Part shown: piece after piece, positions 9,763 to 45,597 of the stretch | How the letters are laid out: every line of letters begins with the position of its first letter | Position numbering within the stretch: position 1 is the stretch's first letter | Origin: Arcobacter sp. EP1 | Lineage (GTDB): Bacteria > Campylobacterota > Campylobacteria > Campylobacterales > Arcobacteraceae | Reading direction: 5' to 3' | NCBI GenBank assembly: GCA_001655195.1 | Contig: LPNY01000122.1 | Location: 113,116 to 160,122 of the forward strand | DNA length: 47,007 nucleotides | The notes under the pieces: model-generated | Databases searched by the model: none | What the model saw: the letters and a program-made list of their open reading frames with translations, nothing else | Told to the model about the DNA's origin: nothing | Translations under genes and position numbers: made by a program

Positions 9763-9906
9763 GGATACGCTTTCTCATTAATTTTATTCTTTTTGATTAT
9801 AACTCTAACAATATTAAATTTTGTTGTTATGCTAGAGTAAAAAATTATTTTTATTTAAGATTTATTTTATATAGGTTACTATTAAGGTACCTAAGAAGGG
9901 AGTAAG

Positions 9907-30050: not shown

Positions 30051-31656
<1,606 letters not shown>

Positions 31657-31705
31657 TTTAAATCCAAAATTATAAATTTCTAAATTTCTTTTATTTTTCT
31701 GCTTT

Positions 31706-31723
31706 TGTGACAGAAACTGTGAC
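31706..31723 (+). promoter_or_regulatory. Direct repeat TGTGAC-N6-TGTGAC upstream of membrane protein gene
   Basis: Two identical TGTGAC hexamers, 12 bases start to start, precede a possible -10 (TATAGT, 31734-31739). They overlap the expected -35 region of the gene at 31765. A regulator site is possible; motif evidence only. Confidence 0.3.
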
Positions 31724-31764
31724 GCAATATAAATATAGTTAGAGAAATTATTTAAAGGAACAAT

Positions 31765-32274
31765 ATGGAAGCTGGTATTATTGGAGGCTTAATTGCGGCA
31801 GCATTAATTGCATTTTTTTCTAAAAAAGAGAGAAAAGGTAGTGTTTATGGTGAAATTAAACATGGTTATGTACCAATAATAGTAGCAACAGGTGCACTAC
31901 TTGCCATTTTAGGTTTAGTTTTTTTAGGTTACGTAACTAAGGTTTGGGAGAACATTTCTGACGTATTAATATTACTCCCAATAGTTTTAGTTTTTTTAGT
32001 TGTTGCAAGTTACTCATTATTAGAGTATTTTAAAGTAAAAGGAACTTTTGATGAAAATAGCATTACCTTTTCTACTCCTTGGAATGGAAAAAAAGTTCTT
32101 TCATGGAATGATTTTGAAAAAGTTGAAGTAAGTGATCTCGCAGGTTGGTATGTACTAAAATTTAAATCTGATGAAAAGATAAGACTTTCAAAAATTTTGA
32201 ATGGTTATGGTGATGTATTAGATTTATTAGAAAAAAAGGGCTTTGATATACCAAAATTTAAAGTAGATCAATGA
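31765..32274 (+). CDS. Hypothetical membrane protein with PH-like C-terminal domain
   Basis: 169 residues: a first hydrophobic segment (about 3-18), then two clear helices (about 34-57 and 63-88), then a soluble domain (about 90-169). The soluble part has the strand pattern 'FDENSITFSTPWNGKKVLSWNDFEKVEVS' and 'YVLKFKSDEKIRLSKIL', which looks like a bacterial PH-type fold. The ATG has an AAAGGAAC ribosome site. It is a single gene with a hairpin downstream. I know no function for it; the PH-like reading is by eye. Confidence 0.68.
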   Translation: MEAGIIGGLIAAALIAFFSKKERKGSVYGEIKHGYVPIIVATGALLAILGLVFLGYVTKVWENISDVLILLPIVLVFLVVASYSLLEYFKVKGTFDENSITFSTPWNGKKVLSWNDFEKVEVSDLAGWYVLKFKSDEKIRLSKILNGYGDVLDLLEKKGFDIPKFKVDQ

Positions 32275-32319
32275 TGACTTAAATTTAATTTACACTTCTC
32301 TGGTTGAATTTCCACTTTT

Positions 32320-32350
32320 AGCTTGACAACTTAAAAAAGTTTGTCAAGCT
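32320..32350. terminator. Hairpin downstream of membrane protein gene
   Basis: AGCTTGACAA (32320-32329) pairs with TTGTCAAGCT (32341-32350); three further pairs form past a one-base bulge. It lies 45 bases after the 32274 stop and just before the heptamer array. Only a short T run follows, so terminator function is uncertain. Confidence 0.5.
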
Positions 32351-32353
32351 TTC

Positions 32354-32395
32354 ACTATTCACTATTCACTATTCACTATTCACTATTCACTATTC
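32354..32395. repeat. Six tandem copies of the heptamer ACTATTC
   Basis: Exact repeats of a 7-base unit, 42 bases in all. Read on the minus strand the unit is GAATAGT, which places stop codons in all three frames. The stop codon of the small minus-strand gene at 32554 is formed in the first unit it meets. This is the kind of array in which copy number can change by slippage. Confidence 0.9.
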
Positions 32396-32554
32396 AATTT
32401 CTCTTCTATCCTTTTTCTTTGCTTTCTTTATATCTTTTTGACGAGTTGGTGTAAATTGACTTTCTTTTCTTCTATTTTCTGCTTTTTTCTTTTGAATAAA
32501 GTAGATAATTACTCCAGATAATGTAAAAGATAGTAACGCTATAAATTCAAACAT
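32390..32554 (-). CDS. Small single-helix membrane protein (54 aa)
   Basis: A 54-residue product with one N-terminal helix (MFEFIALLSFTLSGVIIYFI) and a very basic cytoplasmic tail rich in Lys and Arg ('QKKKAENRRKE', 'KKAKKKDRRE'). The ATG at 32554 has an AAGGG ribosome site 7 bases upstream, which supports translation. The stop (TAG) is provided by the heptamer array, so copy-number change would not alter the protein. No family recognised; it could associate with membranes or nucleic acid through the basic tail. Confidence 0.6.
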   Translation of the reverse strand: MFEFIALLSFTLSGVIIYFIQKKKAENRRKESQFTPTRQKDIKKAKKKDRREIE

Positions 32555-32636
32555 TAGTTTCCCTTTTAGTTTATATTATCATAGTAAAAATATATGTAAA
32601 TCTAATGTAATATTTGTTTATAACCTTGTGTTTGTA

Positions 32637-32698
32637 AATTCCGGGGACAGTTTACCTAATTAATTAAATGGTCAAATAAGTATCCTGTTCTCGGAATT
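32637..32698. repeat. REP-like imperfect palindrome (62 bp)
   Basis: Two 22-base arms (32637-32658 and 32677-32698) match as an inverted repeat with 5 mismatches. The left arm contains AATTCCGGGGACAG, a sequence type I associate with ends of IS200-like/REP-associated transposase elements in marine bacteria. No transposase gene is present, so it is a solo remnant or a REP sequence. It lies upstream of the small gene at 32554 and downstream of the permease. Confidence 0.6.
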
Positions 32699-32781
32699 AT
32701 AATTATAAAAGTTTAAAATTGAAATTAGTAAATGAATATCTTGTTGTCTATATTATTTATTATTAAGCCTCAAATAAGTAT

Positions 32782-34005
32782 TTAAACTACTGAAAATATT
32801 TGAATACATAGAAGTACTAAGTTTACAATTATTCCAAGTGTTGGTATCCAAAAAGGAATATTTATAATACCTTCAGGTGTAGGACTTTTAAGTTTGATTT
32901 TAATTAATGCAAGATTCATTAGTGTAAATACTATAAATATAAAAAAACTTGTAAGACTAGCAAGAGTTACAATTGGAAGCCATAAAGTAAAAATTAAAAT
33001 AACTACAGAAGCAAAAACTGTAGCGATTATTGGCGTTCTTGTTCTTTCATTTATCTTTGTAAAAATTGAGGGAATCCATTTATTCATTCCCATCCCATAA
33101 AGTAATCTTGAAACCATAATTATTTGTATCAAAGCACCATTAATAACTGCAAACATTCCAATAATACTTAATATGATAGGCTCTTTGTTTGTAAGCGTTC
33201 TATATACATCAGCAAGTGGAGCATCACTTTTTGATAATATTTCAGGAGCTATTGCTAGTACAGAGATTGTTGCAACTAGAATATATAAAGTAGTTGAAAC
33301 AATTAAAGTTATAATTATAGCTTTTGGCATGTTTTTTTCTGGTTCTTTTACTTCTTCTGCTACATTTACCATATCTTCAAAACCAATAAATGCATAAAAA
33401 GCTAAAAATGCTCCAAGTGAGATTGTGTACCAAATAGATATTTCAAAAGAGGGAATAAACGCTTTTATTTCGACATTTTTAAATTCAATATTTTCAACAC
33501 CTACAAAAACAATAATAAGTAGACCAAAAATCTCCACTAGTGTTAAGATTGTTGCAAACTTTACTGATTTCCCAATGCCTAATATTGCAACAATTGTTAA
33601 AATACTCAGTAGTAGAATCGCCGTTAAGGTTGAAGGTAAATCAAAAAAATTAGAGATGTATCCATTGAACCCATGAATAATTGTTGCACTTGATAAAATA
33701 CCACTAAGTGCAATTATAATACCTATAAATATTGATATATATTTTGAGTTAAAGGCATGTTTCGCATAAAGAGCTTCTCCTGCACTATATGGAAATCTTG
33801 CAGATAATTCAGAATAACTCAAAGCCGTAAATAAAACAACAATACAAGCAACTATAAATGAAATAGGAGCAAAAATACCAGAGATACCAGCAATTTTTCC
33901 AACAAGTACATAAATGCCAGCACCTAAGATGTTCCCAAGGCCATAAAATATAAGAAGGTATAAAGAGATATCTCTTTTTAGGGTGACTTTATTTTCTGTT
34001 TCCAT
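32782..34005 (-). CDS. Amino acid permease of the APC superfamily
   Basis: 407 residues with about 12 hydrophobic helices. The first helix has the substrate-binding 'GLGNILGAGIYVLVGKIAG' with the unwound GxG segment typical of APC transporters, followed by 'FTALSYSELSARFPYSAGEALYAKHAF', the family's conserved second and third helices. 'FYAFIGFEDMVNVAEEVKEPEKNMPKAI' is the conserved loop after helix 6. It would import or exchange an amino acid or polyamine across the inner membrane; the substrate is not determinable. The ATG has an AGGAC ribosome site. It stands alone between the REP-like element and a 285-base spacer. Confidence 0.85.
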   Translation of the reverse strand: METENKVTLKRDISLYLLIFYGLGNILGAGIYVLVGKIAGISGIFAPISFIVACIVVLFTALSYSELSARFPYSAGEALYAKHAFNSKYISIFIGIIIALSGILSSATIIHGFNGYISNFFDLPSTLTAILLLSILTIVAILGIGKSVKFATILTLVEIFGLLIIVFVGVENIEFKNVEIKAFIPSFEISIWYTISLGAFLAFYAFIGFEDMVNVAEEVKEPEKNMPKAIIITLIVSTTLYILVATISVLAIAPEILSKSDAPLADVYRTLTNKEPIILSIIGMFAVINGALIQIIMVSRLLYGMGMNKWIPSIFTKINERTRTPIIATVFASVVILIFTLWLPIVTLASLTSFFIFIVFTLMNLALIKIKLKSPTPEGIINIPFWIPTLGIIVNLVLLCIQIFSVV

Positions 34006-34290
34006 TGTAAAGTCCTTTGTTATTACAGTATAACATAAGATTGATATATCGTAATATAATTATATTTTTCACTTGATAACAGTAAACTATCTTTGAAAAT
34101 TAAAATTAGAAATTAGGAGTCAGGTGATGAATTTCCACTTTTCAATACCTCTTCCCCATTACTTCTAAAATAGGGATTAGACTTCAAATGGGAACTTTTT
34201 TAATCTACACTAAAAGAAACAATAATACATAAGAGTCCTTTGGGACGCTATGGGATACAATGGTATTTCTAAATGAATTAAAGATTTTAT

Positions 34291-34512
34291 ATGGATGTAG
34301 ATGTTTATACGTCTAAAGATGGGAGTAACTATTTAGCTACTTTGGCATATATGAGACCAAGTATTGAAAGTGGTATTGATATGAGTGAGTTTGAAAACTC
34401 ACCTGAAAGAATTCTTGGTGTTAAAGACCCTTTTGTTTTAGAATCTGTCCTTATAGATGCCCAATATCTTTTTACCAAAATGAAACCTACTTATGAATTC
34501 TTAACCAATTGA
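34291..34512 (+). CDS. Possible small protein (73 aa), uncertain
   Basis: 73 codons from ATG at 34291, acidic, soluble ('MDVDVYTSKDGSNYLATLAY...'). Codon use resembles the neighbours and a TACAAT box lies at 34255-34260, but the ribosome site is weak (AAAG) and a stop codon lies just upstream. It could be a short gene or the surviving end of a decayed one. The spacer before it (34006-34290) shows no gene. It contains GGAGTCAGGTGATG and a 15-base match (TGAATTTCCACTTTT) to the sequence at about 32305, so this flank of the permease shares a short repeat with the other flank. Confidence 0.45.
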   Translation: MDVDVYTSKDGSNYLATLAYMRPSIESGIDMSEFENSPERILGVKDPFVLESVLIDAQYLFTKMKPTYEFLTN

Positions 34513-34592
34513 AACCTGTCATACTCTTTAATCCTTGTTTTCAGTTTTTTTATTTCTAAGTGAACTTTTCGATTTTTTTATCAAGATTTTAC

Positions 34593-34598
34593 TACAAT
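34593..34598 (+). promoter_or_regulatory. Candidate -10 box (TACAAT)
   Basis: TTTTACTACAATACC lies 28 bases before the ATG of the Lys-rich protein gene at 34626. Confidence 0.45.
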
Positions 34599-34625
34599 AC
34601 CGAACTTAAAAAACAAGGTTAACAA

Positions 34626-34847
34626 ATGGCTGGTAAAGAATTAAATATTTCAAGCGTACAAACAAAAAAAGGTGATAAGTTAGCATTACAGGGGAACCAG
34701 AATAAAAATGCTACTCGCGTTGCTTACTCTCAAGAAAAAAATCAAGAAGAACAAGTAATCAACGCACGAAAAGCGGCTAGTTTTAACAAAGCAAAAGCGA
34801 AGAAAAAAGCTAAAGCTGCAAAAGCTTCTCGAAAGAAAAATAAATAA
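34626..34847 (+). CDS. Small lysine- and alanine-rich protein (73 aa)
   Basis: 73 residues, strongly basic. The second half is a Lys/Ala-rich tail ('RKAASFNKAKAKKKAKAAKASRKKNK' in substance), predicted helical or disordered; the first half is polar with Gln and Asn. The composition suggests binding to RNA, DNA or ribosomes, like small histone-like tails, but no named family is recognised. Support for a real gene: a TACAAT promoter-like box, an AAGG ribosome site 8 bases upstream and a hairpin straight after the stop. Confidence 0.6.
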   Translation: MAGKELNISSVQTKKGDKLALQGNQNKNATRVAYSQEKNQEEQVINARKAASFNKAKAKKKAKAAKASRKKNK

Positions 34848-34862
34848 AGGATTCTTCCTTTA
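34845..34862. terminator. Short hairpin between convergent genes
   Basis: TAAAGGA (34845-34851) pairs with TCCTTTA (34856-34862) around a 4-base loop, followed by CTTTATTTTT on the plus strand. It begins in the stop codon of the Lys-rich gene. Confidence 0.6.
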
Positions 34863-34864
34863 CT

Positions 34865-35320
34865 TTATTTTTCATATTTCCAAGACTGTATCTCTATAAT
34901 ATTCTCTTCACAATCTCTACAGTAGGTAAATCGTATAACTCCAACACCCTCGATTTGGTTTTCAATTATTTCACCCAATTTTGAGCCACCATGTTTTATT
35001 ATTTGCTCTAAGGTTTCATCAACATCGTCAACTTCAAAAGCGATATGTGTAAAACCTCTATGGTTTGCCATCATAGGATTGGTTTGCACTAACTCATCAT
35101 AACTAAATATCTCTAGCGTAGGTGCTGTATCGGTTTCATATCCTGGTAGATTTAAATGCATGCCAAATTGTCTTGCATTTTTTAAACCAGTGGCTTTATC
35201 TAGCCAATCACCTTTAAGGTTTCTTTCGGGTAGTTTGGGTGTACATTTAAACACCTTGATATAAAAATCTGCAACTTTTTTCCAATCTTTTGCAGCAATA
35301 TTTGTATGGGCATATCTCAT
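34865..35320 (-). CDS. VOC-superfamily (glyoxalase/dioxygenase-like) protein
   Basis: 151 residues from the ATG at 35320, which has an AAAGAGAG ribosome site; a TTG 42 bases further up lacks one. The vicinal-oxygen-chelate pattern is clear: 'YAHTNIAAKDWKKVADFYIKVFKC' with the first metal-type histidine, 'PTLEIFSY', then the second module 'NHRGFTHIAFEVDDVDETLEQIIKHGG' and the closing 'NIIEIQSW'. Family members are lyases, dioxygenases and resistance proteins; the reaction here is unknown. Single gene, convergent to the Lys-rich protein. Confidence 0.82.
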   Translation of the reverse strand: MRYAHTNIAAKDWKKVADFYIKVFKCTPKLPERNLKGDWLDKATGLKNARQFGMHLNLPGYETDTAPTLEIFSYDELVQTNPMMANHRGFTHIAFEVDDVDETLEQIIKHGGSKLGEIIENQIEGVGVIRFTYCRDCEENIIEIQSWKYEK

Positions 35321-35543
35321 TAAATTTACTCTCTTTATTTGATAGAATTTATTATTGTTCAATTTGAATTATAGTTAAACAAACTTCTAAAAGTTTAAAA
35401 TGAGAATTTTATCTATAGATACTCAAATAGTTTTAATCACTTTTAGTAAGCTTACATTCTGCAATACTTTTAAACATTAGCGTTTTTTTCAACTATACTT
35501 CTAAAAATAAAATAGAGGTATTAGCCTAGTGAAGGAAAAAAAC

Positions 35544-35873
35544 GTGAATGGTAATATTGAAGTGACATATAAGGTTGTTAAAAAAGATGATTTGAATCTC
35601 TCTATTAGTTTAGAAGAGATACTCAAAAATGAAAAGATAGTTAAAGTTATCAAAGCAGAGTTTGCAAAAGGGTATAGAAATATTGATATTGTAACTGATT
35701 CTGAACTAACGGATAAAATTAAATTAGAAAGCATCAAAGAACACCATAACTTTGCCGTACTAAAAGATGATTTTGCAGATATTGTAACACTTGCTGAAGA
35801 TGATGCAACAAGTAAGAAACTACTTAAAAAAGAGTGTTTCGTGGAACTTGTAGATATTAAAACAGTTGAATAA
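35544..35873 (+). CDS. Hypothetical soluble protein (109 aa)
   Basis: The chosen GTG at 35544 has AAGGA 7 bases upstream; a GTG at 35529 would include that site inside the gene. The product is acidic/basic mixed, soluble, with alternating strands and helices ('NIEVTYKVVKKDDLNLSISLEEIL', 'GYRNIDIVTDSEL', 'NFAVLKDDFADIVTLAEDD', 'CFVELVDIKTVE'). No signal peptide or membrane helix. I do not recognise the family. It is convergent to the orphan kinase with a shared terminator. Confidence 0.65.
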   Translation: MNGNIEVTYKVVKKDDLNLSISLEEILKNEKIVKVIKAEFAKGYRNIDIVTDSELTDKIKLESIKEHHNFAVLKDDFADIVTLAEDDATSKKLLKKECFVELVDIKTVE

Positions 35874-35901
35874 AAATGCTACTTATCAAAGTGGTATTTT
35901 T
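35872..35901. terminator. Bidirectional terminator between convergent genes
   Basis: AAAAATGCTACTT (35872-35884) pairs with AAGTGGTATTTTT (35889-35901), with two wobble-type pairs and a 4-base loop. A and T runs flank it for both strands, and it overlaps the kinase stop codon. Confidence 0.7.
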
Positions 35902-37508
35902 ATTATGAACTCTGTACCTGTATACTCTTTATTATTAATTACAGACGTACGATTTCTTACAAGAAACTTTCCCTTCATACGTTTAGTAATAATTTCATAA
36001 GACATATATAGACCAATACCGGTACCTTGAGATTTGTGTTTTGTGGTGTAATAAGGTTCAAATACTCTATGTATTATCTCTTCTGGTATTCCACCTGCAT
36101 TATCTCTAAAAAGAATTTGACTAGCACTTTGTTCTTTTGTAATTTCGATTGTAATCACTTTATCAGATAGCTCTTTTTTATCTACAAATGCATCAATTGA
36201 ATTGTTGATGATATTTAGAAATATTTGAATAAGTTCATTCTTTATTCCATAAGCTTCTATTTTTTCAAAATTTTTAATAACTTTGATATTATTACTTATA
36301 AGTAGCGAATCAATCAGTAGTAAAGAGTGCTTTAAAGTACTGTCCAAATAAAATTTTTCTTTTTCTCTGTCTTTTTGGAAATAGTTTTTAAAATCATCAA
36401 TTGTATTGGATAGATAGTGTGTCGTTTTATTAATAGTTTCTAACGAGTTATTAAATTGTTCATCACTTAAAGTATTTGATTTTTTGTAAAATAGCAGACC
36501 TGTAGTGACACTTGAAATAATACTTAAGGGTTGTCTCCATTGATGAGCTATATTTTCTAGCATTTCTCCCATAGAAGCCATTTTTGACTGATGCGCAATA
36601 ACCTTCTGTTGTTCGATTATTTCTTTTGATTTTTCCTCGACTATGTGTTCCAAAGTAGCTTGATTTCTATAGAGAATATAAAAAATAAATAACAGAAATA
36701 TTGACATGAGGAAGTTAAATGTAAATATTGTATTTTGTCCATTGTTAACGATATCTCTTTGATTTTCAGCAGATATCGAAAAAACATAGTTTCCTAAAGA
36801 GTTAAATATTTGAACATTGTTAATTATTTTATGATGACTGTATAAAACATCAATTTTTGTATTTTTTAAAAAGGGGAAATTAACTATTTGAATATCATTG
36901 TTTGACTGTAGCTTTGTAATTTTAAGTTTTTCAAAAACTTTTGTCATAGAACTGAGATGCTTATGACTTATAAATTTACCGCTTAAGATATAGCCATTAT
37001 TATCTCCACTAGAGTCACTTTTTTTTATTTCTGATTTGATTAAATAAAGTAGTTTAGATTTATATTGAAAAACTGTATGTATATTTTTTACTTGAAGTTC
37101 TTTCAAAAGAAAGTCTTCAAAGTTTTTAGTATTGTTTATTGGTGAATTCTCAAGATACTTTGAAAATATTACCTTGTTTTTAAGTGTTGCATAAATAATA
37201 AAGTCTATACTTAAATCTTCAAGAGTATTTGTACCTTCTCTAAAGTTTTCATAAATATAGTCTGGATTTGAAGTTTTTATGAAATTATAAGTGTCATCCC
37301 ATTTGCTGTAATCGTTTATGATATTTTTAATATTTTCAATATTAGTATTAATTATGGATAAAATGGTGTGAATATTATTACTATTCTGTTTCTCCTCAAG
37401 TTTTTCAAAATCATTTATAAAAAATTGGTAACTAGATGTAAAAAAGAATAGAACAATTGTAAAATATAAAGTAACAAAAAGAAAAAGATTCGTTTTTTTT
37501 GATTTCAT
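35886..37508 (-). CDS. Orphan sensor histidine kinase with CHASE4-like periplasmic domain
   Basis: 540 residues from the ATG at 37508 (GAGAG ribosome site). A TTG four codons upstream is less likely because that site would be inside the gene. Topology: helix 1 (about residues 8-28), a periplasmic domain of about 220 residues with 'INDYSKWDDTYNFI', the mark of CHASE4 sensors, helix 2 (about 256-276), then a short coiled coil and the kinase: 'MLENIAHQWRQPLSIIS' (His322), N-box 'FLNIINNSIDAF', G1 'DNAGGIPEEI', 'FEPYYTTK' and 'GTGIGLYMSYEI'. All catalytic boxes look intact. No response regulator gene is adjacent. It is divergent from the duplicated membrane protein gene at 37736, separated by 227 bases that hold the palindrome block. 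Confidence 0.85.
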   Translation of the reverse strand: MKSKKTNLFLFVTLYFTIVLFFFTSSYQFFINDFEKLEEKQNSNNIHTILSIINTNIENIKNIINDYSKWDDTYNFIKTSNPDYIYENFREGTNTLEDLSIDFIIYATLKNKVIFSKYLENSPINNTKNFEDFLLKELQVKNIHTVFQYKSKLLYLIKSEIKKSDSSGDNNGYILSGKFISHKHLSSMTKVFEKLKITKLQSNNDIQIVNFPFLKNTKIDVLYSHHKIINNVQIFNSLGNYVFSISAENQRDIVNNGQNTIFTFNFLMSIFLLFIFYILYRNQATLEHIVEEKSKEIIEQQKVIAHQSKMASMGEMLENIAHQWRQPLSIISSVTTGLLFYKKSNTLSDEQFNNSLETINKTTHYLSNTIDDFKNYFQKDREKEKFYLDSTLKHSLLLIDSLLISNNIKVIKNFEKIEAYGIKNELIQIFLNIINNSIDAFVDKKELSDKVITIEITKEQSASQILFRDNAGGIPEEIIHRVFEPYYTTKHKSQGTGIGLYMSYEIITKRMKGKFLVRNRTSVINNKEYTGTEFIIKIPL

Positions 37509-37680
37509 AGTTTCTCTCAAAATAATTAAATTATACCATAAAAAAAACCTAAAATAAGGTTTTGATTTTGAGACAATTTTATTTTATAATATTTTTATAA
37601 ATAGGAAAGAAGAAAAAGTTTTATTTTCAATGAGTCATTTCTTCACTTCAAGATTAGTCAAAATATTTATGAGACAATAT

Positions 37681-37713
37681 TTAGATTAATCTAATTTTTT
37701 TCATTGTAATATT
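37681..37713 (+). promoter_or_regulatory. Conserved palindrome-promoter block, copy 1
   Basis: TTAGATTAATCTAA (37681-37694) is a perfect 14-base palindrome. After a 5-base gap comes TTCATTGTAATATT (37700-37713), containing a -10-like TAATAT at 37707-37712. The palindrome falls where the -35 region would be, the usual place for a regulator site. The same block, with identical spacing, lies before the gene at 38362. Confidence 0.65.
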
Positions 37714-37735
37714 TATAGACTAAAAGGGATATATT

Positions 37736-38182
37736 ATGATTATTAATGAAATAAAACAAAACTATAAAGCATTTAAAGAAAAAAAAGGTGATGACCTGTT
37801 AATTAAAATAGGAATTGGTGGAGTAGTAATTGGTTGGATTCTTTCAATCTCATTTATTCAATATCTATTTGCATGGGTTCTTCTATTTGGATTTGGTATG
37901 AAACTCTATGATTTTGCTGAAAAAGAGCAACAACGATTTGAACCAAACACGGAAAATAAAAAAACGCTTGTTGATGAAATAGCTGAAAAATATAAAGCAT
38001 TCAAACAAAATGAGGGTGATAATTTATTAATTAAAATTGGTATCGCTGGAGTTTTAATTGGTTGGATTTTTTCAATTTCATTTATTCAACATCTTTTTGC
38101 TTGGTTTATTCTCGTTGGTGTTGCTATGAAACTGTTTGATTATAATTTTCAAGCGGACAAAACAAATACGGTTAAAGAATAG
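37736..38182 (+). CDS. Membrane protein with two tandem copies of a two-helix unit
   Basis: 148 residues made of two near-identical halves (about 1-73 and 76-148). Each half has a charged helix with 'YKAFK', then 'D(D/N)LLIKIGI', two hydrophobic helices with 'GVxIGWIxSISFIQxLFAW' and 'MKLxDF/Y', then a polar linker. The DNA of the halves is also closely similar, pointing to internal duplication. The total is four membrane helices with a duplicated topology. The ATG has an AAAAGGG ribosome site. The 38362 gene encodes a third, single copy. I do not recognise the family. Regulation is probably through the palindrome at 37681, and a strong terminator follows the stop. Confidence 0.78.
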   Translation: MIINEIKQNYKAFKEKKGDDLLIKIGIGGVVIGWILSISFIQYLFAWVLLFGFGMKLYDFAEKEQQRFEPNTENKKTLVDEIAEKYKAFKQNEGDNLLIKIGIAGVLIGWIFSISFIQHLFAWFILVGVAMKLFDYNFQADKTNTVKE

Positions 38183-38213
38183 AGGGGTTTTTTGAAAAAA
38201 CCTCTTTTCTTTT
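38181..38213 (+). terminator. Rho-independent terminator
   Basis: AGAGGGGTTTT (38181-38191) pairs with AAAACCTCTTT (38197-38207), with wobble pairs at two positions and a 5-base loop. A T-rich tail (TCTTTT) follows. It starts in the stop codon of the duplicated gene, so the next gene needs its own promoter. Confidence 0.75.
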
Positions 38214-38304
38214 AGTTCAACACAAACATTAAACTACTACACTTTGTGTTAAATCCCCACTTTTTAATTCTAAAAAATAAATCAAAAAAAATATGATAAA
38301 AAAT

Positions 38305-38337
38305 TTAGATTAATCTAATATCATTCATTGTAATATT
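38305..38337 (+). promoter_or_regulatory. Conserved palindrome-promoter block, copy 2
   Basis: TTAGATTAATCTAA (38305-38318), a 5-base gap, then TTCATTGTAATATT (38324-38337). The palindrome and the 14-base downstream segment are identical to the block at 37681, and the spacing is the same, while the 5 gap bases differ. It lies 24 bases before the start of the second gene of the family. Confidence 0.65.
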
Positions 38338-38361
38338 GTCAAAATAAAATACGGAAGCTAT

Positions 38362-38631
38362 ATGTTCAACACAGAAAAATATAAAAAACAATTTATCGAA
38401 TATTATAATTTAGCAAAAGCAAAACAGGTTGATACTTTATTAATACTTGTAGGGATACTTGGTGTTTTAATTGGTTGGGTATTTTCTGTATCAATTATCA
38501 ACTATATCTTTGCGTGGTTTATTCTTTTTGGGGTTTGTTTCAAATTATATGACTTTACTGAAAAGATTGAACGAGAAATTATTCCTTATGATTTTAACTC
38601 TCTTTTGCCTCCACCTCCACCTAAAAAGTAG
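38362..38631 (+). CDS. Single-unit paralogue of the two-helix membrane protein
   Basis: 89 residues: a charged start ('YKKQFIEYYNLAKAKQVD'), then 'TLLILVGILGVLIGWVFSVSIINYIFAWFILFGVCFKLYDF' in two helices (about residues 25-64), matching both halves of the gene at 37736, and a proline-rich end ('NSLLPPPPPKK'). It is more diverged than the two halves are from each other, so it is the older copy. It has its own palindrome-promoter block and an ACGGAAG ribosome site. Function unknown; it probably forms helical hairpins in the inner membrane. Confidence 0.75.
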   Translation: MFNTEKYKKQFIEYYNLAKAKQVDTLLILVGILGVLIGWVFSVSIINYIFAWFILFGVCFKLYDFTEKIEREIIPYDFNSLLPPPPPKK

Positions 38632-38756
38632 TGTGAGGTAACTCTACTATAACTCTTTAATTCTTCTTAAATCAATTTTTATTCTTAAGAGTAGATTAAA
38701 TTGATTAATACTAATATCTAGGTATACAACAATCTTAGAACGAAAAAGGGTTAAAA

Positions 38757-39230
38757 ATGAATCTCTTACACCCGCCATTTGTGCATTTTGTCGTTGCTTT
38801 GCCTGTCGTTGCTCTATTTTCTCAGTTTACCTTTTTGGTGACAAAAGATAAGAGTTATTCTAAAGCTGCTTTTCGTATTATAGCTTTTGCATTTTTAGTT
38901 TCCATCTTTGCTGTACTTGGTGGTATCAATGATGCACAAAGAATTATGGAAGATAACACAATTCTACAAGAAGGCGTGGCCTTTTTAAGTAGCCATAAAA
39001 CGTTTGGATTTATTGTCGTTGTTGCACTGTTTGCAACTACTCTTACTAAATGGTTTGCCATTTCTAAAGAGTCTGCTTTGCTTGAAAATATTTCGCTTTT
39101 TCTGATAATAGTCACATTATTAGGAGCACTATATCAAGGACGAAGCGGCGGAGAATTGGTTTATCGATATTCAGCAGGAATAGATAGTGAAATTGTTATA
39201 CAACGAATGAATGAGCAGAATTTAAAGTAA
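38757..39230 (+). CDS. DUF2231-family membrane protein
   Basis: 157 residues with four hydrophobic helices. It opens 'LLHPPFVHFVVALPVVALF', the family's conserved His-Pro...His pattern in helix 1, and has 'LGGINDAQ' after helix 2, 'HKTFGFIVVVALFATTL' in helix 3 and 'GRSGGELVYRYSAGI' at the C-terminus, all typical of DUF2231. The conserved histidines suggest heme or metal binding in the membrane, as proposed for relatives; this is not shown here. The ATG has an AAAGGG site. Spacing of 125 bases from the previous gene argues for a separate promoter. Confidence 0.78.
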   Translation: MNLLHPPFVHFVVALPVVALFSQFTFLVTKDKSYSKAAFRIIAFAFLVSIFAVLGGINDAQRIMEDNTILQEGVAFLSSHKTFGFIVVVALFATTLTKWFAISKESALLENISLFLIIVTLLGALYQGRSGGELVYRYSAGIDSEIVIQRMNEQNLK

Positions 39231-39422
39231 TTACTTAGTTCTCTTATCATCATTTAGTTATCAATATAGTCTCTTCCTTGTCTTTAGTTATTATTACGCT
39301 AGAATGTAATTTTTATAAATGATGATAGAGACTATGCATTTGTTATAGTAATTTTTCTGACCTTTACACTTTTTATATTTTTAAAATAAGAGAATCTCAC
39401 CATTATATTTCACTAACTTTTT

Positions 39423-39428
39423 TATAAT
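39423..39428 (+). promoter_or_regulatory. Candidate -10 box (TATAAT)
   Basis: TTTTTTATAATATC ends 17 bases before the pseudouridine synthase start, leaving room for the AAGGAA ribosome site. Confidence 0.5.
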
Positions 39429-39444
39429 ATCAAGGAATAAACTA

Positions 39445-40023
39445 ATGAATAGTACAATTGATTCTCAAAAACTACTCGCACTGAATAAACCAAAGGGTTA
39501 TGTTGTAACTCGTTCTGATGAACGTGGACGAAAAACGGTTTATGATCTTTTGCCCCAGTGGGTTTTTGATGACCAGTGGATGCCTATTGGTAGATTGGAC
39601 TTAGAATCCCGTGGACTATTGTTGTTTACCCGTGATGGTCAAGTTGGTAATGTTTTAACAAAACCTGGTGGTTGCATAAAAGTCTATGAGATTTGGGTTC
39701 GAGGACATGTAACGAAAGAACATATTACTCAAGCAATGAATGGAGTAGAGAGTAAATTTGGTCTGCTTAAAGCATTAAGTGTTGAAAAAATTGGTATGGG
39801 TGGAGCAAAAACAAAACTAAGAGTACAAATTGACGAAGGGAAAAACCGTCATATACGGCGTCTGTTTGGTGCAATGAAAGACCCAAAATTTGGAACACCC
39901 TTAAAAGTTGTGACACTAACACGTGTGCGTATTGGGACGTTTAATCTTGATATTGAAAGTGGAAAATGGCGTTACCTAAGTCTTGAAGAAGAGAAGATAT
40001 TATTAAAAGGTTTACACGTATAA
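39445..40023 (+). CDS. RsuA/RluE-family pseudouridine synthase without S4 domain
   Basis: 192 residues. It starts directly with the catalytic fold 'LLALNKPKGYVVTRSDERGRKTVYDLLP', then 'PIGRLDLESRGLLLFTRDG' with catalytic Asp52, 'KVYEIWVRG' and 'LRVQIDEGKNRHIRRLFGAM'. The lack of an N-terminal S4 domain and the size fit RluE (23S rRNA pseudouridine 2457), while RluB/RluF/RsuA have S4 domains. RluE is therefore the best guess but not certain. It has an AAGGAA ribosome site and its own promoter-like box. It is convergent to the secreted repeat protein. Confidence 0.82.
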   Translation: MNSTIDSQKLLALNKPKGYVVTRSDERGRKTVYDLLPQWVFDDQWMPIGRLDLESRGLLLFTRDGQVGNVLTKPGGCIKVYEIWVRGHVTKEHITQAMNGVESKFGLLKALSVEKIGMGGAKTKLRVQIDEGKNRHIRRLFGAMKDPKFGTPLKVVTLTRVRIGTFNLDIESGKWRYLSLEEEKILLKGLHV

Positions 40024-40051
40024 AAAAAGAAGGGAAAAACATTTCCCTTCT
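40022..40051 (-). terminator. Terminator for the minus-strand secreted protein gene
   Basis: GAAGGGAAA (40029-40037) pairs with TTTCCCTTC (40042-40050). On the minus strand the hairpin is followed by seven T residues, so it mainly stops transcription arriving from 40431. It lies against the rluE-like stop codon. Confidence 0.75.
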
Positions 40052-40077
40052 CTAAGGAGACAAAATATTAACTGCGT

Positions 40078-40431
40078 TTAACACGTGATGTTTACACGCG
40101 CATCAGTGTTTTCTTCTGGGTAAAGAGCAGTTAATGTACAGTGTTGAATACCTGACTGTGCTATACTTGTAGCCATTGATTCACCTTTATCATTAACTCT
40201 TAAGTAAGTTGGTGTATCATCATTTTCAGTTGGGTAAAAAGCTGTTAATGTTCCTGTTTTAATGCTTGAAACAGCTAATGTTTTATGTCCTTCTACCTTC
40301 ATATCTTTTTGGATAAGGTAATCGGGAGTATCTACATTTTCAGCTGGGAAAAATGCTGAAAAACCATCTTGTGCAAAAGCACTTCCTGCAAACAGAGTTA
40401 ATCCTACAATTGTTGTTGTTAACGTTTTCAT
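40078..40431 (-). CDS. Secreted small protein with three short tyrosine/phenylalanine-proline repeats
   Basis: 117 residues. A Sec signal peptide (MKTLTTTIVGLTLFAGSAFA, cleavage after AFA) leads to a mature protein of about 97 residues with three copies of one motif: 'FSAFFPAENVDTPDYL', 'LTAFYPTENDDTPTYL' and 'LTALYPEENTDARVNI'. The common core is [LF]-[ST]-A-[FL]-[FY]-P-x-E-N-x-D, at about residues 24, 61 and 100. Two cysteines near the C-terminus could form a disulfide. The ATG has a strong AAAAGGA ribosome site and a TATACAAT promoter-like box upstream, plus a terminator. I do not recognise the family; location is periplasmic or extracellular. Confidence 0.72.
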   Translation of the reverse strand: MKTLTTTIVGLTLFAGSAFAQDGFSAFFPAENVDTPDYLIQKDMKVEGHKTLAVSSIKTGTLTAFYPTENDDTPTYLRVNDKGESMATSIAQSGIQHCTLTALYPEENTDARVNITC

Positions 40432-40617
40432 TTTAAATCCTTTTTTCTTTTTCGTTATTTGTATTGTATAGGATTTTTGTGAAGACGACGTAAAGGGTTC
40501 GTTTAGAATTTGTGTACTCTTTTGCCTTTTTTAGGACAATTTTTAGTCTAGTTAATAATAACTATTGGAAACTTTGCGTAAACTACTCTTCTAATATTTA
40601 TAAATGTAGGAACATCA

Positions 40618-40971
40618 ATGCTTAATAAAATAGATAAAGAAATAGACGAATTTTCAGACAACATTAAAGAAGTAAAAGGTTGTGATGATATGTTAACTTA
40701 TATGAATAGTGATATTTATGCAAGTATAAAACTTTTAATGTTTGCATCTAAATCTTTCTCATTATATAGTAGGATATTGTTATTTTTTGTAATAGCCTTC
40801 ACCGGTTTACTAATCATGTCAAGTATAAGTATGGGTGGCTTAAATACGGAATTACTTATAATAAATATCGTTTTTTTCTTTTTAACAATTTTATTTGTTT
40901 TCCAGTGCAAAAAAGTTTTGATTTCGAGTATTGAAGCGTCCAAGAAAACTATGCAAGAATCTGAACAGTAA
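40618..40971 (+). CDS. Hypothetical two-helix membrane protein (117 aa)
   Basis: 117 residues: a soluble acidic start ('NKIDKEIDEFSDNIKEVKG'), two hydrophobic helices (about 52-70 and 77-97) and a short charged tail. The ATG has a TAGGAAC ribosome site. The stop is followed after 3 bases by the GIY-YIG gene, so the two are probably cotranslated. No family recognised. The arrangement of cytoplasmic termini with a helical hairpin is inferred from charge distribution. Confidence 0.62.
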   Translation: MLNKIDKEIDEFSDNIKEVKGCDDMLTYMNSDIYASIKLLMFASKSFSLYSRILLFFVIAFTGLLIMSSISMGGLNTELLIINIVFFFLTILFVFQCKKVLISSIEASKKTMQESEQ

Positions 40972-40974
40972 TTG

Positions 40975-41229
40975 ATGTCTTATTTTGTTTATATATTAGA
41001 GTGCAGTGATGAAACTTTGTACACAGGTATAACTAAAGATGTACAAAAACGCTTAGATGAGCATAATAACTCCCATAAGGGTGCAAAGTATACAAAGACA
41101 AGACGACCTGTAAAACTACTCTATAAAGAGTCTTCAGCGGATAGAAGTAGTGCGTCTAAACGTGAATATGAAATTAAAAAGCTTACACGAGAAAAAAAGC
41201 TACAACTTATAGGAAAAACTTCTTTATAA
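40975..41229 (+). CDS. GIY-YIG domain protein (YhbQ/UPF0213-like)
   Basis: 84 residues from the ATG at 40975. The GIY-YIG core is 'YFVYILECSDETLYTGITKDVQKRLDEHN', with Y-V-Y and Y-T-G in the family positions and the catalytic-type Arg in 'QKRLDEHN', then 'GAKYTKTRRPVKLLY' and a Glu in 'SKREYEIKKLTREKK'. These small stand-alone proteins are putative structure-specific nucleases or DNA-binding proteins. It follows the membrane protein gene by 3 bases. Its last 6 bases overlap the convergent acetyltransferase gene. Confidence 0.87.
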   Translation: MSYFVYILECSDETLYTGITKDVQKRLDEHNNSHKGAKYTKTRRPVKLLYKESSADRSSASKREYEIKKLTREKKLQLIGKTSL

Positions 41230-41859
41230 ACTGTTTTTATTCTTTTCCCAATAGTTCCATAAAGCTTCTATGTTATTGCTACAAATAAGAGGCATACTCT
41301 CTTTGACTTTTTCTTCTGTCCAAGTCCACCATTTCATGGTTAATAGTTGTTCTATTTGTTTTTCATTAAATCGTGTTTTGATAATAGTTGCTGGATTACC
41401 ACCTACAACCGTGTAGGGAGCTACATCTTTTACAACCACTGCACGGGCTGCTATAATAGCTCCATCACCTATAGTGATGCCTGGAATTATCATGGCTTCA
41501 GAACCAATCCATACGTCATTACCTATTTTAGTATCGCCTACTTTTTCAAAACCATTTTTGGAGTCTTTAAAAATATTGGCTTGAAAATAAAAGGGAAAAG
41601 TACTTATCCAGTCACTTCTATGTCCTTGATTTCCTGCCATCATAAATACTGCACCTGAACCAATAGAACAGTAGTTACCAATGATAAGTCTATCTACATC
41701 TTTTCGTTTATCGTGTAAATAGCGAACGCACTCAACAAAATCATGTTTGTGATAGTATCCTGAATAGTAAGAGAATTTTCCTACCTCAATATTTGGATGA
41801 TTGACTGTTTCATGTAAAAGTTGTGATGAAAATTGGTTTTCAAAATGGTAAGGTTTCAT
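41224..41859 (-). CDS. CatB-like xenobiotic O-acetyltransferase (hexapeptide repeat)
   Basis: 211 residues with a left-handed beta-helix: repeated hexapeptides in 'IIGNYCSIGSGAVFMMAG', 'DTKIGNDVWIGSEAMIIPGITIGDGAIIAARAVVVKDV' and 'YTVVGGNPATIIKTRF'. H80 in 'GNQGHRSDW' matches the catalytic histidine of type B chloramphenicol/streptogramin acetyltransferases. The 'KWWTWTEEKV' segment near residue 175 is also typical. It would acetylate hydroxyl groups of drugs or sugars with acetyl-CoA; actual drug resistance is not implied by sequence alone. Single gene, convergent to the GIY-YIG gene (6-base overlap). Confidence 0.87.
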   Translation of the reverse strand: MKPYHFENQFSSQLLHETVNHPNIEVGKFSYYSGYYHKHDFVECVRYLHDKRKDVDRLIIGNYCSIGSGAVFMMAGNQGHRSDWISTFPFYFQANIFKDSKNGFEKVGDTKIGNDVWIGSEAMIIPGITIGDGAIIAARAVVVKDVAPYTVVGGNPATIIKTRFNEKQIEQLLTMKWWTWTEEKVKESMPLICSNNIEALWNYWEKNKNSL

Positions 41860-41955
41860 AAGGCTCCTGATGATAAATGCAGTGTAACATAGTTATTAAT
41901 ATAGCAACTTAATCGGCTTTTATTTTAATAGAAGAGTAAAGTTGTGAATATGCGC

Positions 41956-41961
41956 TATAAT
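41956..41961 (+). promoter_or_regulatory. Candidate -10 box (TATAAT)
   Basis: TGCGCTATAATGTC lies 24 bases before the ATG at 41985, followed by a TAAGGAT ribosome site. Confidence 0.55.
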
Positions 41962-41984
41962 GTCAAAAAAATATAAGGATATAA

Positions 41985-42410
41985 ATGCCTAAGGGTAAAA
42001 AAACAATTATTAAAGAGATTAAACTATTAGAGAATGATGAAATTTTAATTAATGGAAAAGAGTATGTGATACTTGAAACAACTCAAGACATTGAAACTGC
42101 TAAAACCATGAAAATCTCTTCTAATGGAAATCGAATTTTACGATTTGATGATGAAAAGAAAAAAGCAAGACTGGATGTAAAACGTAGTATTGATATTATT
42201 CAAGTAACATTTAGTGATAAAGAAAAAGCAAAAAAATTCAGTAAGACAAATGATAAAAAATTGATTTCAAATGATGATAAAAAAGAGATAATTGATACAG
42301 CAAACTCTTTTATCAATGCGCGAGCAATTGTTTCAAAATTTCAAGATAAAAAAAGTGAAACCTATGATAAACGAGTAGGGGTAACTATTTTTTATTTATT
42401 TGAAGAATAA
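41985..42410 (+). CDS. Hypothetical soluble lysine-rich protein (141 aa)
   Basis: 141 residues, Lys/Asp/Glu rich, with no membrane helix or signal. The N-terminal half has a small beta pattern ('DEILINGKEYVILETTQDI', 'NRILRFDD', 'IDIIQVTFSD'), and the C-terminal half is helical then beta ('VGVTIFYLFEE'). It has a clear promoter-like box and an AAGGAT ribosome site, so it is a real gene. No family recognised. The convergent neighbour at 42733 ends 11 bases away. Confidence 0.65.
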   Translation: MPKGKKTIIKEIKLLENDEILINGKEYVILETTQDIETAKTMKISSNGNRILRFDDEKKKARLDVKRSIDIIQVTFSDKEKAKKFSKTNDKKLISNDDKKEIIDTANSFINARAIVSKFQDKKSETYDKRVGVTIFYLFEE

Positions 42411-42421
42411 AACAGGTTAAT

Positions 42422-42733
42422 CTATCCTAAATCCAAGGGAATAAAGTTTTGCTGTAGTTCAATACTGCTATAACGTTCATTCTCTTCTTCTAAAATAGTT
42501 TTTACTTTCTCCTCTATTGCATCAAGAAGTGAATCTTTCGTATCGTTGATTGAGAGATTGGCTTCAATTTCAATGGCTTTTTTCTTAATGGTAGAAAAGT
42601 CTTCATTTTCCAGATTTGAACGTACCTTTTGTGCTAATACTTCTTTGATACAATCTTTGTCATAACCACAGTCGTCTATATTAGCACCAATTTTTTTTGC
42701 TTTGTCTTGTAAAACTTCAAGATAACTATTCAT
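42422..42733 (-). CDS. Hypothetical helical protein (103 aa)
   Basis: 103 residues, acidic and mostly helical. It appears to hold two related segments of about 37 residues: 'LQDKAKKIGANIDDCGYDKDCIKEVLAQKVRSNLE' (about 7-41) and 'IKKKAIEIEANLSINDTKDSLLDAIEEKVKTILEE' (about 49-83). They share K-A-x-x-I-x-A-N and E-x-(hydrophobic)-x-x-K-V patterns, which suggests a duplicated helical hairpin. The ATG has an AAAAAGGA ribosome site. No family recognised. Confidence 0.62.
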   Translation of the reverse strand: MNSYLEVLQDKAKKIGANIDDCGYDKDCIKEVLAQKVRSNLENEDFSTIKKKAIEIEANLSINDTKDSLLDAIEEKVKTILEEENERYSSIELQQNFIPLDLG

Positions 42734-42903
42734 TAGAGTCCTTTTTCTTTTAAATATTATAAAATAAAAGTGTGTAGGAATGATTAAGTTATTAAATTAG
42801 TATTGGAAATTCTTAATTTATTTTATTTAATATGTCTCTATTATGTGTTATTAACTACTTTTTTTATACAATTCCAGCACAAGAAACACTAAGGAATTAG
42901 AAA

Positions 42904-43545
42904 ATGAATTTAATGGTATTTGGAGCTCCGGGTGCAGGAAAAGGTACACAAGCTAAATTTTTAATTGAAAAGTATGATATCCCTCAAATCTCAACAGGTG
43001 ATATTTTAAGAGCAGCAATCGCTGATAAAACTGATATGGGTATGGAAGCAAAGAACTATATGGATGCAGGAAAGCTAGTTCCTGATTCAACAATCATTGG
43101 TATTATTAAAGATAGACTCGCTGAAGATGACTGTAAAAAAGGGTTTATTCTTGATGGATTCCCACGAACATTAGCACAAGCAGAAGCATTAAAAGAGCTT
43201 ATGGCTAACATGGGAATTTCACTTGATAAAGTTATATCTTTAAATGTTCCAGATGAGTTAATCGTTGGAAGAATTACTGGAAGAAGAGTATGTCCTGATT
43301 GTGGAGCTTCTTTTCATGTTGACTTTAATCCTTCAAAAACTGAAGATGTATGTGACTACTGTAGTGGTGAATTAATCATTAGAAAAGATGACAATGCCGA
43401 AACAGTTAAAAGTAGACTAGGAGCTTACCATGAACAAACAGCTCCATTAATCGCATTTTATACTGAAATGGGTGTTATGGTTGAACTTGATGGAACAAAA
43501 GATGTATCAGAAGTAACAGCTGATATGTTTGCATCAATTTCATAA
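42904..43545 (+). CDS. adk: Adenylate kinase, long form with four-cysteine zinc lid
   Basis: 213 residues. P-loop 'GAPGAGKGTQAKF' (about residues 7-19), 'ISTGDILRAAI', 'GFILDGFPRTLAQAEAL' and 'GRRVCPDCGASFHVDFNPS...CDYCSGELIIRKDDNAETVKSRL'. The lid carries C130-x2-C133 and C150-x2-C153, a zinc-binding arrangement best known from Gram-positive adenylate kinases. It interconverts ATP+AMP and 2 ADP in the cytoplasm. The ATG has an AAGGAATT ribosome site, and a TACAAT box (42867-42872) lies upstream. Single gene. Confidence 0.95.
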   Translation: MNLMVFGAPGAGKGTQAKFLIEKYDIPQISTGDILRAAIADKTDMGMEAKNYMDAGKLVPDSTIIGIIKDRLAEDDCKKGFILDGFPRTLAQAEALKELMANMGISLDKVISLNVPDELIVGRITGRRVCPDCGASFHVDFNPSKTEDVCDYCSGELIIRKDDNAETVKSRLGAYHEQTAPLIAFYTEMGVMVELDGTKDVSEVTADMFASIS

Positions 43546-43567
43546 TCATTAAATTAAAGACCATATG

Positions 43568-43592
43568 GGAGTTGAACATTTGATTCAACTCC
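43568..43592. terminator. Hairpin after adk
   Basis: GGAGTTGAA (43568-43576) pairs with TTCAACTCC (43584-43592) around a 7-base loop, 23 bases after the adk stop. There is no long T run, so termination efficiency is uncertain. Confidence 0.5.
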
Positions 43593-43654
43593 TAAAACTT
43601 ACTTCAAAAAACTAACCTACAATTAATCTAAATTTTTCTACACTTTAAAATATA

Positions 43655-43670
43655 TTGACTAAATAGTCAA
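43655..43670. promoter_or_regulatory. Inverted repeat TTGACTA-AA-TAGTCAA upstream of cupin gene
   Basis: A perfect 7-base inverted repeat, 20 bases before the cupin ATG and next to a possible -10 (TATATT, 43651-43656). It fits a repressor operator at the start of transcription. TTGACT could instead be read as a -35, but no -10 fits downstream. Confidence 0.45.
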
Positions 43671-43690
43671 ATAATTTCTAGGAGAGTGTT

Positions 43691-44143
43691 ATGAAAGAAA
43701 TTGAAAAAATCGTTGAAGAGAAAAACTACAACGCCATCAATCTTGGTAATTTAGATGAACTCATGGAGTATTCTCTCATTCATAAAGTTAACAAACAAAA
43801 AGTCGAGGGTAAAGTATTTTTAAAAGAGCCTACAAATGCCACGGGTACAGAAATCTCATTTAATTCACTTGCGGCAAAACAAGAGCAACCTTATTTTCAT
43901 ATTCACTATAAAAATGAAGAGACCTATATTATCCTAAAGGGGTATGGTTATTTTCAAGTAGATGGTAACTGTTTTGAAATCAAAGAGGGGAGTGTAATCC
44001 GTGTTGCACCAAATGGTATTCGTGGGATTAGAAATGATAGTGATGAAACTATGATATATATGGTCGTGCAATCAAAAGAGAATTCACTTGAAGAGTATAC
44101 AACTGATGATGGTGAACGTGTAGCTTTTGAACCTAAATGGTAA
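43691..44143 (+). CDS. Single-domain cupin protein
   Basis: 150 residues with one cupin barrel. The metal-site motif is 'PYFHIHYKNEETYIILKGYGYFQVDG' (H-x-H-x4-E and the glycine-rich turn), and the second motif is 'IKEGSVIRVAPNGIRGIRNDSDETMIYMVV', which has an Arg-Pro-Asn-Gly loop with no obvious histidine ligand. The N-terminal 45 residues are a mixed helix/strand extension ('EIEKIVEEKNYNAINLGNLDEL'). Such proteins bind small molecules or act as isomerases and dioxygenases; substrate unknown. The ATG has an AGGAGAG ribosome site, and an inverted repeat upstream suggests regulated expression. Confidence 0.8.
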   Translation: MKEIEKIVEEKNYNAINLGNLDELMEYSLIHKVNKQKVEGKVFLKEPTNATGTEISFNSLAAKQEQPYFHIHYKNEETYIILKGYGYFQVDGNCFEIKEGSVIRVAPNGIRGIRNDSDETMIYMVVQSKENSLEEYTTDDGERVAFEPKW

Positions 44144-44146
44144 AGT

Positions 44147-44512
44147 TTAAAGAGAACTTTTAATAGCTAGTAGTTCTGTTATAGTTCTCTTTTCTAGTTC
44201 TTTTACTTTTCTAAGAACGGCTTCTTGACTATCAAATTTAAGCTTTAGACAAATTGCTTCAATCAAACTATATTTATCAGTTTTAACAGTAAGCTTTTCA
44301 CGTTGGCGTTGTAGTTCATTTCTTTGGTTAATAACTGTTTTGAGATATAAATCCACTGCTTTAGAATCTACTTCATTATCTATTAAAAAGATCTCCACAT
44401 CTTTTAGTATTACTTCAACTTTTTCTTTTAAAGTATTAAAACTATGGTTTTCTGTCTCATAAATAAGTGTTTCAATTTTTTTATCAACTATTGCAAGTGC
44501 ATCTGTAGTCAC
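44147..44512 (-). CDS. Hypothetical coiled-coil-like protein (121 aa)
   Basis: 121 residues from a GTG start at 44512 with an AAGGAAACCT ribosome site just upstream. It is almost wholly helical and charged, with heptad-like spacing of Leu/Ile/Val ('LYLKTVINQRNELQRQREKL', 'AVLRKVKELEKRTITELLAI'). No membrane helix or signal peptide. No family recognised. It is convergent to the cupin gene, 3 bases away. Confidence 0.62.
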   Translation of the reverse strand: MTTDALAIVDKKIETLIYETENHSFNTLKEKVEVILKDVEIFLIDNEVDSKAVDLYLKTVINQRNELQRQREKLTVKTDKYSLIEAICLKLKFDSQEAVLRKVKELEKRTITELLAIKSSL

Positions 44513-44575
44513 AGGTTTCCTTATATTTTTTATAGATGAGATTTTATCATAATTTACGATAAATAGATGTTAGGG

Positions 44576-44581
44576 TAAAAT
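44576..44581 (+). promoter_or_regulatory. Candidate -10 box (TAAAAT)
   Basis: TTAGGGTAAAATAGG lies 35 bases before the start of the exported agmatine deiminase-family gene. Confidence 0.45.
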
Positions 44582-44616
44582 AGGTCAAAATCTATAAAAA
44601 AATTAAAAGGAAAACA

Positions 44617-45597
44617 ATGTCAATTGTAAAATTTTTGATGCCTGTTGTTTTGTTATTTTCAATTACATTTGCAGTTGAATTACGTGTTCCTGCTGAGTGG
44701 GAAAAACATGAAGCAACTTGGATGCAGTGGCCAGATGATTATGATAGAAGTTTGCGGTTACCTTTTTCTCAAATTATTAAAATCGTACAACAGTATGAAA
44801 GAGTACATTTAATTGTTCGAAATATACAAGAGAAAAAAAGTGCTAAGCAATTTTTAAAAAGATATGATGTTGATACTAATAATATCACTTGGCATACCTT
44901 GGCAACAAACAATGCATGGCTAAGAGACAATGGTCCTGTATACGTCAAGAAAGGCAAAGAGATTTTTTTATATAACTTTGGATTTGATGCTTGGGGTGGA
45001 AACTTTGGAAATGATGTTGAGTTTTTAGATGATGATAAAGTTCCTAATTATATTGCAAAGTACTTAGATAAAAAAGTGATAAAAAAGTTAGACTATATAT
45101 TAGAACGAGGCAACTTAGAGTTTAACGGTGAAGATATTTTAGTCTTAAATTGGGATTGTCAAGATGATAGAAATCCAAATTTGAGCCAAGACGAACATGA
45201 AGCTATTTTAAAAGAATCCTTTGGAGTTAAAAAAATTATTTGGGCATATGGACATCATCCTGATGATGGCACAACTGGGCATATTGATGGAACAGCACGA
45301 TTTATTAATAAATCAACTTTGGTGATTACTGATTATGATGCGCAAACAGAACGAGATTTAGCACGAGAAGCTAAAAAGGCTGGATTAATAGTCAAATGGT
45401 ATCCTGGTGACCCAAATTGGCTTGTGGGTAATGGTTATGTGATCGCAATGTCTGATGGTGATGAAAGTTTTGATAGGGAACTGGAAGAACTCCTTTCCTC
45501 TTATTTTCCTAATCGTGATGTTTATATGATAGATGGAAGTGCCATTGCAAAAGCAGGTGGTGGAATTCATTGTCTTACCAATGACCAACCTAAATAG
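44617..45597 (+). CDS. Exported agmatine deiminase / peptidylarginine deiminase-family enzyme
   Basis: 326 residues with a Sec signal peptide (MSIVKFLMPVVLLFSITFA), so the enzyme should act in the periplasm. The mature part is a PAD_porph-type guanidino hydrolase: 'WEKHEATWMQWP', 'AWLRDNGPVYV' with Asp104, 'GTTGHIDGTARF' with catalytic His222 and Asp224, and nucleophile Cys319 in 'GGGIHCLTNDQP'. Canonical AguA enzymes are cytoplasmic, somewhat longer, and have a 'GG(A/S)IH' substrate loop; here the corresponding place reads 'ERGNLEFNGEDILVLNWDCQDDRNPNLS'. It would release ammonia from agmatine (or a peptide arginine). An AAAAGGAA ribosome site precedes the ATG. No other agmatine-pathway gene is adjacent; agmatinase is 38 kb away at 5497. 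Confidence 0.82.
   Translation: MSIVKFLMPVVLLFSITFAVELRVPAEWEKHEATWMQWPDDYDRSLRLPFSQIIKIVQQYERVHLIVRNIQEKKSAKQFLKRYDVDTNNITWHTLATNNAWLRDNGPVYVKKGKEIFLYNFGFDAWGGNFGNDVEFLDDDKVPNYIAKYLDKKVIKKLDYILERGNLEFNGEDILVLNWDCQDDRNPNLSQDEHEAILKESFGVKKIIWAYGHHPDDGTTGHIDGTARFINKSTLVITDYDAQTERDLAREAKKAGLIVKWYPGDPNWLVGNGYVIAMSDGDESFDRELEELLSSYFPNRDVYMIDGSAIAKAGGGIHCLTNDQPK

Follow-up and report, generated by a model that had tools for sequence, protein, structure and literature searches.

Two adjacent genes in the window (i.e., the whole 47,007-nucleotide stretch of Arcobacter sp. EP1 DNA that was analysed) encode proteins of 148 and 89 amino acids which together carry three copies of a two-helix membrane unit. 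This raises the question of how one unit came to be doubled in one gene and single in the next, and of what such proteins could be doing in the membrane.

Three copies of one unit and the order of their duplication

Both open reading frames lie where an earlier note on this DNA had placed them (Table 1), each is preceded by a purine-rich ribosome site (AAGGGA at 37724-37729 for the 148-aa gene and GGAAG at 38353-38357 for the 89-aa gene), and with the terminator-like hairpin between them they are probably separate transcripts. The three copies announced in that note are there as well: 38 of 59 residues (64%) are identical between units 1 and 2 of the 148-aa product, the repeat unit being of some 70 residues, and the 89-aa product is 52% and 48% identical to the two units. 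Local alignment scores among the three are 215, 170 and 168, as opposed to maxima of 87, 80 and 64 in 1000 shuffles per alignment that preserve the hydrophobic/polar pattern, and such an excess over pattern-keeping shuffles means that the likeness goes beyond the effect of two membrane helices alone. At the DNA level, units 1 and 2 are 75% identical, and each is 60–61% identical to the third copy. The dN of 0.25 and dS of 0.57 between units 1 and 2 (dN/dS about 0.44, NG86) indicate that they are coding and under (relaxed) purifying selection, and thus that some constraint has acted on the double unit ever since its origin.

Table 1. Positions in the window of the two genes, their units and the elements around them
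Feature	Position	Strand	Remark
Palindrome TTAGATTAATCTAA, promoter block of 148-aa gene	37681..37694	.	exact genome search
TAATAT, likely -10 of 148-aa gene, within conserved GTA-nn-ATTT	37707..37712	+	-10 assignment inferred
148-aa paralogue, two tandem two-helix units, conserved tail lost	37736..38182	+	found in own genome only
Unit 1, residues 1-74 of 148-aa product	37736..37957	+	
Unit 2, residues 75-148 of 148-aa product	37958..38179	+	
Intrinsic-terminator-like hairpin, 12 pairs, 3' of 148-aa gene	38181..38207	+	1 found vs 0.2 expected in shuffles
Palindrome TTAGATTAATCTAA, promoter block of 89-aa gene	38305..38318	.	exact genome search
TAATAT, likely -10 of 89-aa gene	38331..38336	+	-10 assignment inferred
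89-aa gene, ordinary Arcobacteraceae family member	38362..38631	+	~70% identity to single-copy relatives
Conserved C-terminal tail, residues 67-89, EKIEREIIPYDFNSLLPPPPPKK	38560..38628	+	tail residues invariant in 25/25 relatives

Phylogeny places units 1 and 2 as sisters (support 100/99) next to the 89-aa protein, which supports the order already proposed in the note, with gene duplication as the likely first step and internal duplication as the second. The pair sits on a long branch, of 1.2 changes per site versus 0.15 for the 89-aa protein, and the grouping of all three units of the window against 25 relatives has a support of 90/83, which is not decisive. At the position following the third glycine all three have a W in place of the L, I or F of the relatives, and this common residue suggests that the duplication may have taken place within the window's own lineage. 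Of the consensus quoted in the earlier note the family-wide residues stand, whilst the W of its IGW is peculiar to the copies of this genome and the C-terminal tail had been left out.

It is this tail, IxPYDFNxLLPPP, that makes the most conserved part of the family. In all 25 relatives E67, E70, I73, Y76, F78, N79, L82 and P83-P85 are invariant in the tail, and Y15, K19, K21, G31, G34, G38, W52, L55, G57, L62, Y63 and F65 are kept in the rest of the protein. The 89-aa protein has nearly all of these residues, tail included. The 148-aa product retains the helix glycines, W52 and the K-L-Y/F-D motif and, as PYDFN-x-LLPPP is absent from it, has to be regarded not as an ordinary member but as a derived paralogue of the 89-aa protein, doubled internally and without the conserved tail.

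A family restricted to Arcobacteraceae and its chromosomal site

Absence of the unit from related genomes, which the earlier note had named (together with lack of expression) as counting against it, is not what is seen: 26 of the 104 Arcobacteraceae species searched, each represented by its genome, carry the family, in 8 of 20 genera, and the same 26 were recovered with the 148-aa query and then with a profile. The repeated unit is not supported as the natural state of the family: the usual form is one gene of about 85 residues with its conserved tail, every other carrier has one complete copy, and the double unit, looked for across the 104 genomes, was seen in its own genome only. Over about 84 positions the profile matches the 89-aa protein with E 1.2e-41 and the units of the 148-aa protein with E 3.8e-28 and 3.1e-27, values that are not independent, since the three units of the window are themselves part of the profile; with the 148-aa protein as a single-sequence query, which is independent of it, relatives match at E down to 1.9e-16. 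The single-copy relatives (e.g., JAHIWE010000012.1, locus L036, and JAQTXA010000001.1 of Aliarcobacter sp., locus L037) are like the 89-aa protein over the whole length, in helices and in tail, with 63–69% identity; they differ in being the one copy of their genome and in having no W after the third glycine, whereas the 148-aa protein differs from them in being doubled and tailless.

No member was found outside Arcobacteraceae among 397 genomes of the class, which were drawn evenly from a larger group, so that rare carriers could be missed. A scan of bacteria and archaea with the 89-aa query, at one genome per species, gave two full-length relatives, seemingly counted among the Arcobacteraceae loci before, and a match of 16 residues that chance probably explains, as it probably does a weak extra match in another genome (G095; E 2.7e-4, internal stops). 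The listed genome size is at least 2.5 Mb for every carrier and close to 2 Mb for many non-carriers; in animal-associated Arcobacter species, genomes reduced to about 2.1 Mb are described (PMC10336517), and it is plausible that the gene was lost along with genome reduction.

The note's statement that no known family fits proved right, as neither product matches a curated family or, by sequence, a solved structure. The nearest candidate, DUF5362 (PF17319), matches weakly over the two-helix part in 10 of 17 family members (best E 0.0005). It was rejected: the scores in the window are 22.5 (148-aa product) and 19.2 bits, under the 25-bit gathering cut-off, the model exceeds that cut-off in none of 21 genomes, and apparently unrelated stretches elsewhere score 17–18 bits. 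A literature search on DUF5362 and on this protein found nothing. Weak and scattered matches to CPP1-like, TMEM249, MtrF, G6P isomerase and cytochrome oxidase are likely noise of membrane composition. The 89-aa protein is the ordinary member of a small membrane-protein family restricted to Arcobacteraceae. Such orphan families are common in bacterial genomes; this genome adds one unusual derived paralogue.

The gene keeps to one place on the chromosome. In the window and in 16 of 20 neighbourhoods of relatives it has guaB upstream and/or metX downstream (guaB in 14 of the 20, metX in two more); the other four stretches are too short to reach either and contain the zone's other genes. Wherever guaB and the family gene are both seen they are co-directional, and no immediate neighbour or operon partner is constant across the 20, so that the gene, with its constant zone and changing neighbours, is probably monocistronic. 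In 11 genomes without the family gene, other genes stand behind guaB, with metX directly there in one (L124). All this is what one would expect of a gene long established at a single locus, repeatedly lost or exchanged and with no operon partner.

The zone itself, behind guaB (31515-45597 in the window), is a variable accessory region across Arcobacteraceae, made mostly of small genes recurring in shuffled order. Directly downstream of the 89-aa gene is a DUF2231 membrane protein (38757-39230, + strand; Pfam E 8e-16), whose gene is not adjacent to the family gene in the relatives examined. Further on (40078-40431, - strand) is a gene whose 117-aa product looks exported and matches no Pfam family; it contains an internal repeat of about 38 residues three times over (at residues 24, 62 and 100), built around [FL][ST]A[FL][FY]P-x-EN-x-D.

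A promoter block with a palindrome

The two genes of the window share more than their coding sequence. The longest stretch common to both promoters is of 17 identical bases, compared with at most 12 in 300 shuffles, and the exact 14-base palindrome occurs in the 3.0-Mb genome at 37681 and 38305 only; one more site appears when a single mismatch is allowed. In 12 promoters from 11 genomes of three genera (its own and two further) a block of some 40 bases is conserved, which relatives in other genera do not share; it consists of an invariant half-site A-x-TCTAA, a less conserved other half-site, a T-rich spacing and then AT-x-GTA-xx-ATT, and the columns flanking TAATAT are invariant in all 12. 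If TAATAT is the -10, the palindrome would lie over the -35 region, a position that would suit a repressor or a site-specific activator. When the 11 genomes were scanned with a model of the block, the own promoters scored 2e-6 to 2e-9 in 10 of them, a match by construction, and no other site came near, the next best being at about 0.01. In the lack of any comparable second site the block looks gene-specific rather than the mark of a regulon. No RNA families were found in 34-43 kb of the window.

Possible roles of the single and the double unit

Hydropathy bears out the note's two-helix membrane unit, with two peaks, a polar or proline loop between them, K or E at residue 48 in about half of the relatives and a basic N-terminal segment. 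The AlphaFold2 models of the two proteins are poor (mean pLDDT 73 and 72, pTM 0.39 and 0.29), and each unit appears in them as a single long helix with no resolved hairpin, so that the predicted topology is drawn from hydropathy and charges alone. On these grounds the unit would be a hairpin in the cytoplasmic membrane with both ends cytoplasmic, i.e., with a lysine-rich N-terminal helix, the C-terminal tail inside and, on the far side, a short loop at S-x-P/S-II-N.

Our tentative reading, to which we give a probability of about 0.4 and which is built on sequence features, is that of an oligomeric two-helix membrane anchor whose cytoplasmic tail would recruit a partner, and which the tailless double unit may modulate. 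The invariant G31-x2-G34-x3-G38 face, with G57, would pack the helices and let hairpins oligomerise; patterns of the type G-x2-G-x3-G are common in membrane helices, which counts against reading oligomerisation from them. The tail, I-x-PYDFN-x-LLPPP, would serve as a docking peptide that either recruits a cytoplasmic partner to the membrane or keeps hold of a larger membrane protein. On this view the 148-aa protein would be a covalently joined pair of membrane parts that lacks the docking peptide. Expressed from a duplicate of the same promoter, it would enter the same assemblies and lower the number of tails or space them out. The fuller proposal of an undescribed Arcobacteraceae membrane scaffold family that docks through its cytoplasmic tail and answers to a gene-specific regulator, in which one species would have made its tailless fused dimer into an antagonist or spacer subunit under the same promoter, seems to us improbable as a whole.

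The strongest rival, if itself rather unlikely, concerns the 148-aa gene alone, which could be the decaying by-product of a tandem duplication that lost its tail and function, leaving the family role to the 89-aa gene. The long branch (1.2), the presence in a single genome, the loss of every tail residue and, in unit 2, of E67, E70 and K21 would all be explained by decay. Decay sits less well with an open frame of 148 codons provided with a ribosome site, its own promoter block and a terminator, with the dN/dS of about 0.44 between the units after the internal duplication, or with the helix glycines and W52 retained in both of them.

The earlier note had suggested a channel, stress or membrane-organising protein. 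A small oligomeric channel or pore (e.g., for ion or solute leak, as an osmotic or stress protein), in which the double unit would be a four-helix subunit, is a doubtful candidate. In its favour, the helices are short, have invariant glycines and are joined by a tight loop, and fused-repeat subunits are known in several channel families. In the 25 relatives, however, no charged or strongly polar residue is conserved inside the helices, which mildly disfavours a transporter or selective channel; the region of highest conservation is the soluble tail, and neither channel families nor solved structures are matched. A membrane-active toxin of a toxin-antitoxin pair or a phage holin is very unlikely, since a small hydrophobic hairpin encoded in a variable accessory zone, with a weak match to a PHROG holin in one of 17 members (E 0.013), has to be set against the lack of a constant neighbour as antitoxin, of relatives in viral contigs, of PADLOC or plasmid matches and of a lysis-cassette context, and against the single chromosomal site and conserved tail throughout the family.

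The invariant tail and the gene-specific palindrome offer good starting points for finding a partner and a regulator of these proteins, which are described in no library. Otherwise this is an ordinary lineage-restricted small membrane protein with a modest but real lineage-specific duplication, and its interest is that of a compact case, in which gene duplication, a later internal duplication and the disappearance of the family's most conserved segment can be followed with the parent gene, the promoter and 25 single-copy relatives at hand.

Another form of duplication is seen in a relative (G001) which, besides its complete copy, has a truncated duplicate made by an insertion sequence. Directly after this relative's copy of the gene (L069, G001:C1:1760000-1778000, reverse-complement 8595-10817) stands an IS1634-family element of 1757 bp with ends CTGACTTTCTCAT, which encodes a 533-aa transposase (NCBIfam E 7e-101). 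The 3' part of the gene is found on both sides of the element as a perfect direct repeat of 233 bp, which looks like a very long target-site duplication that left one gene copy whole.
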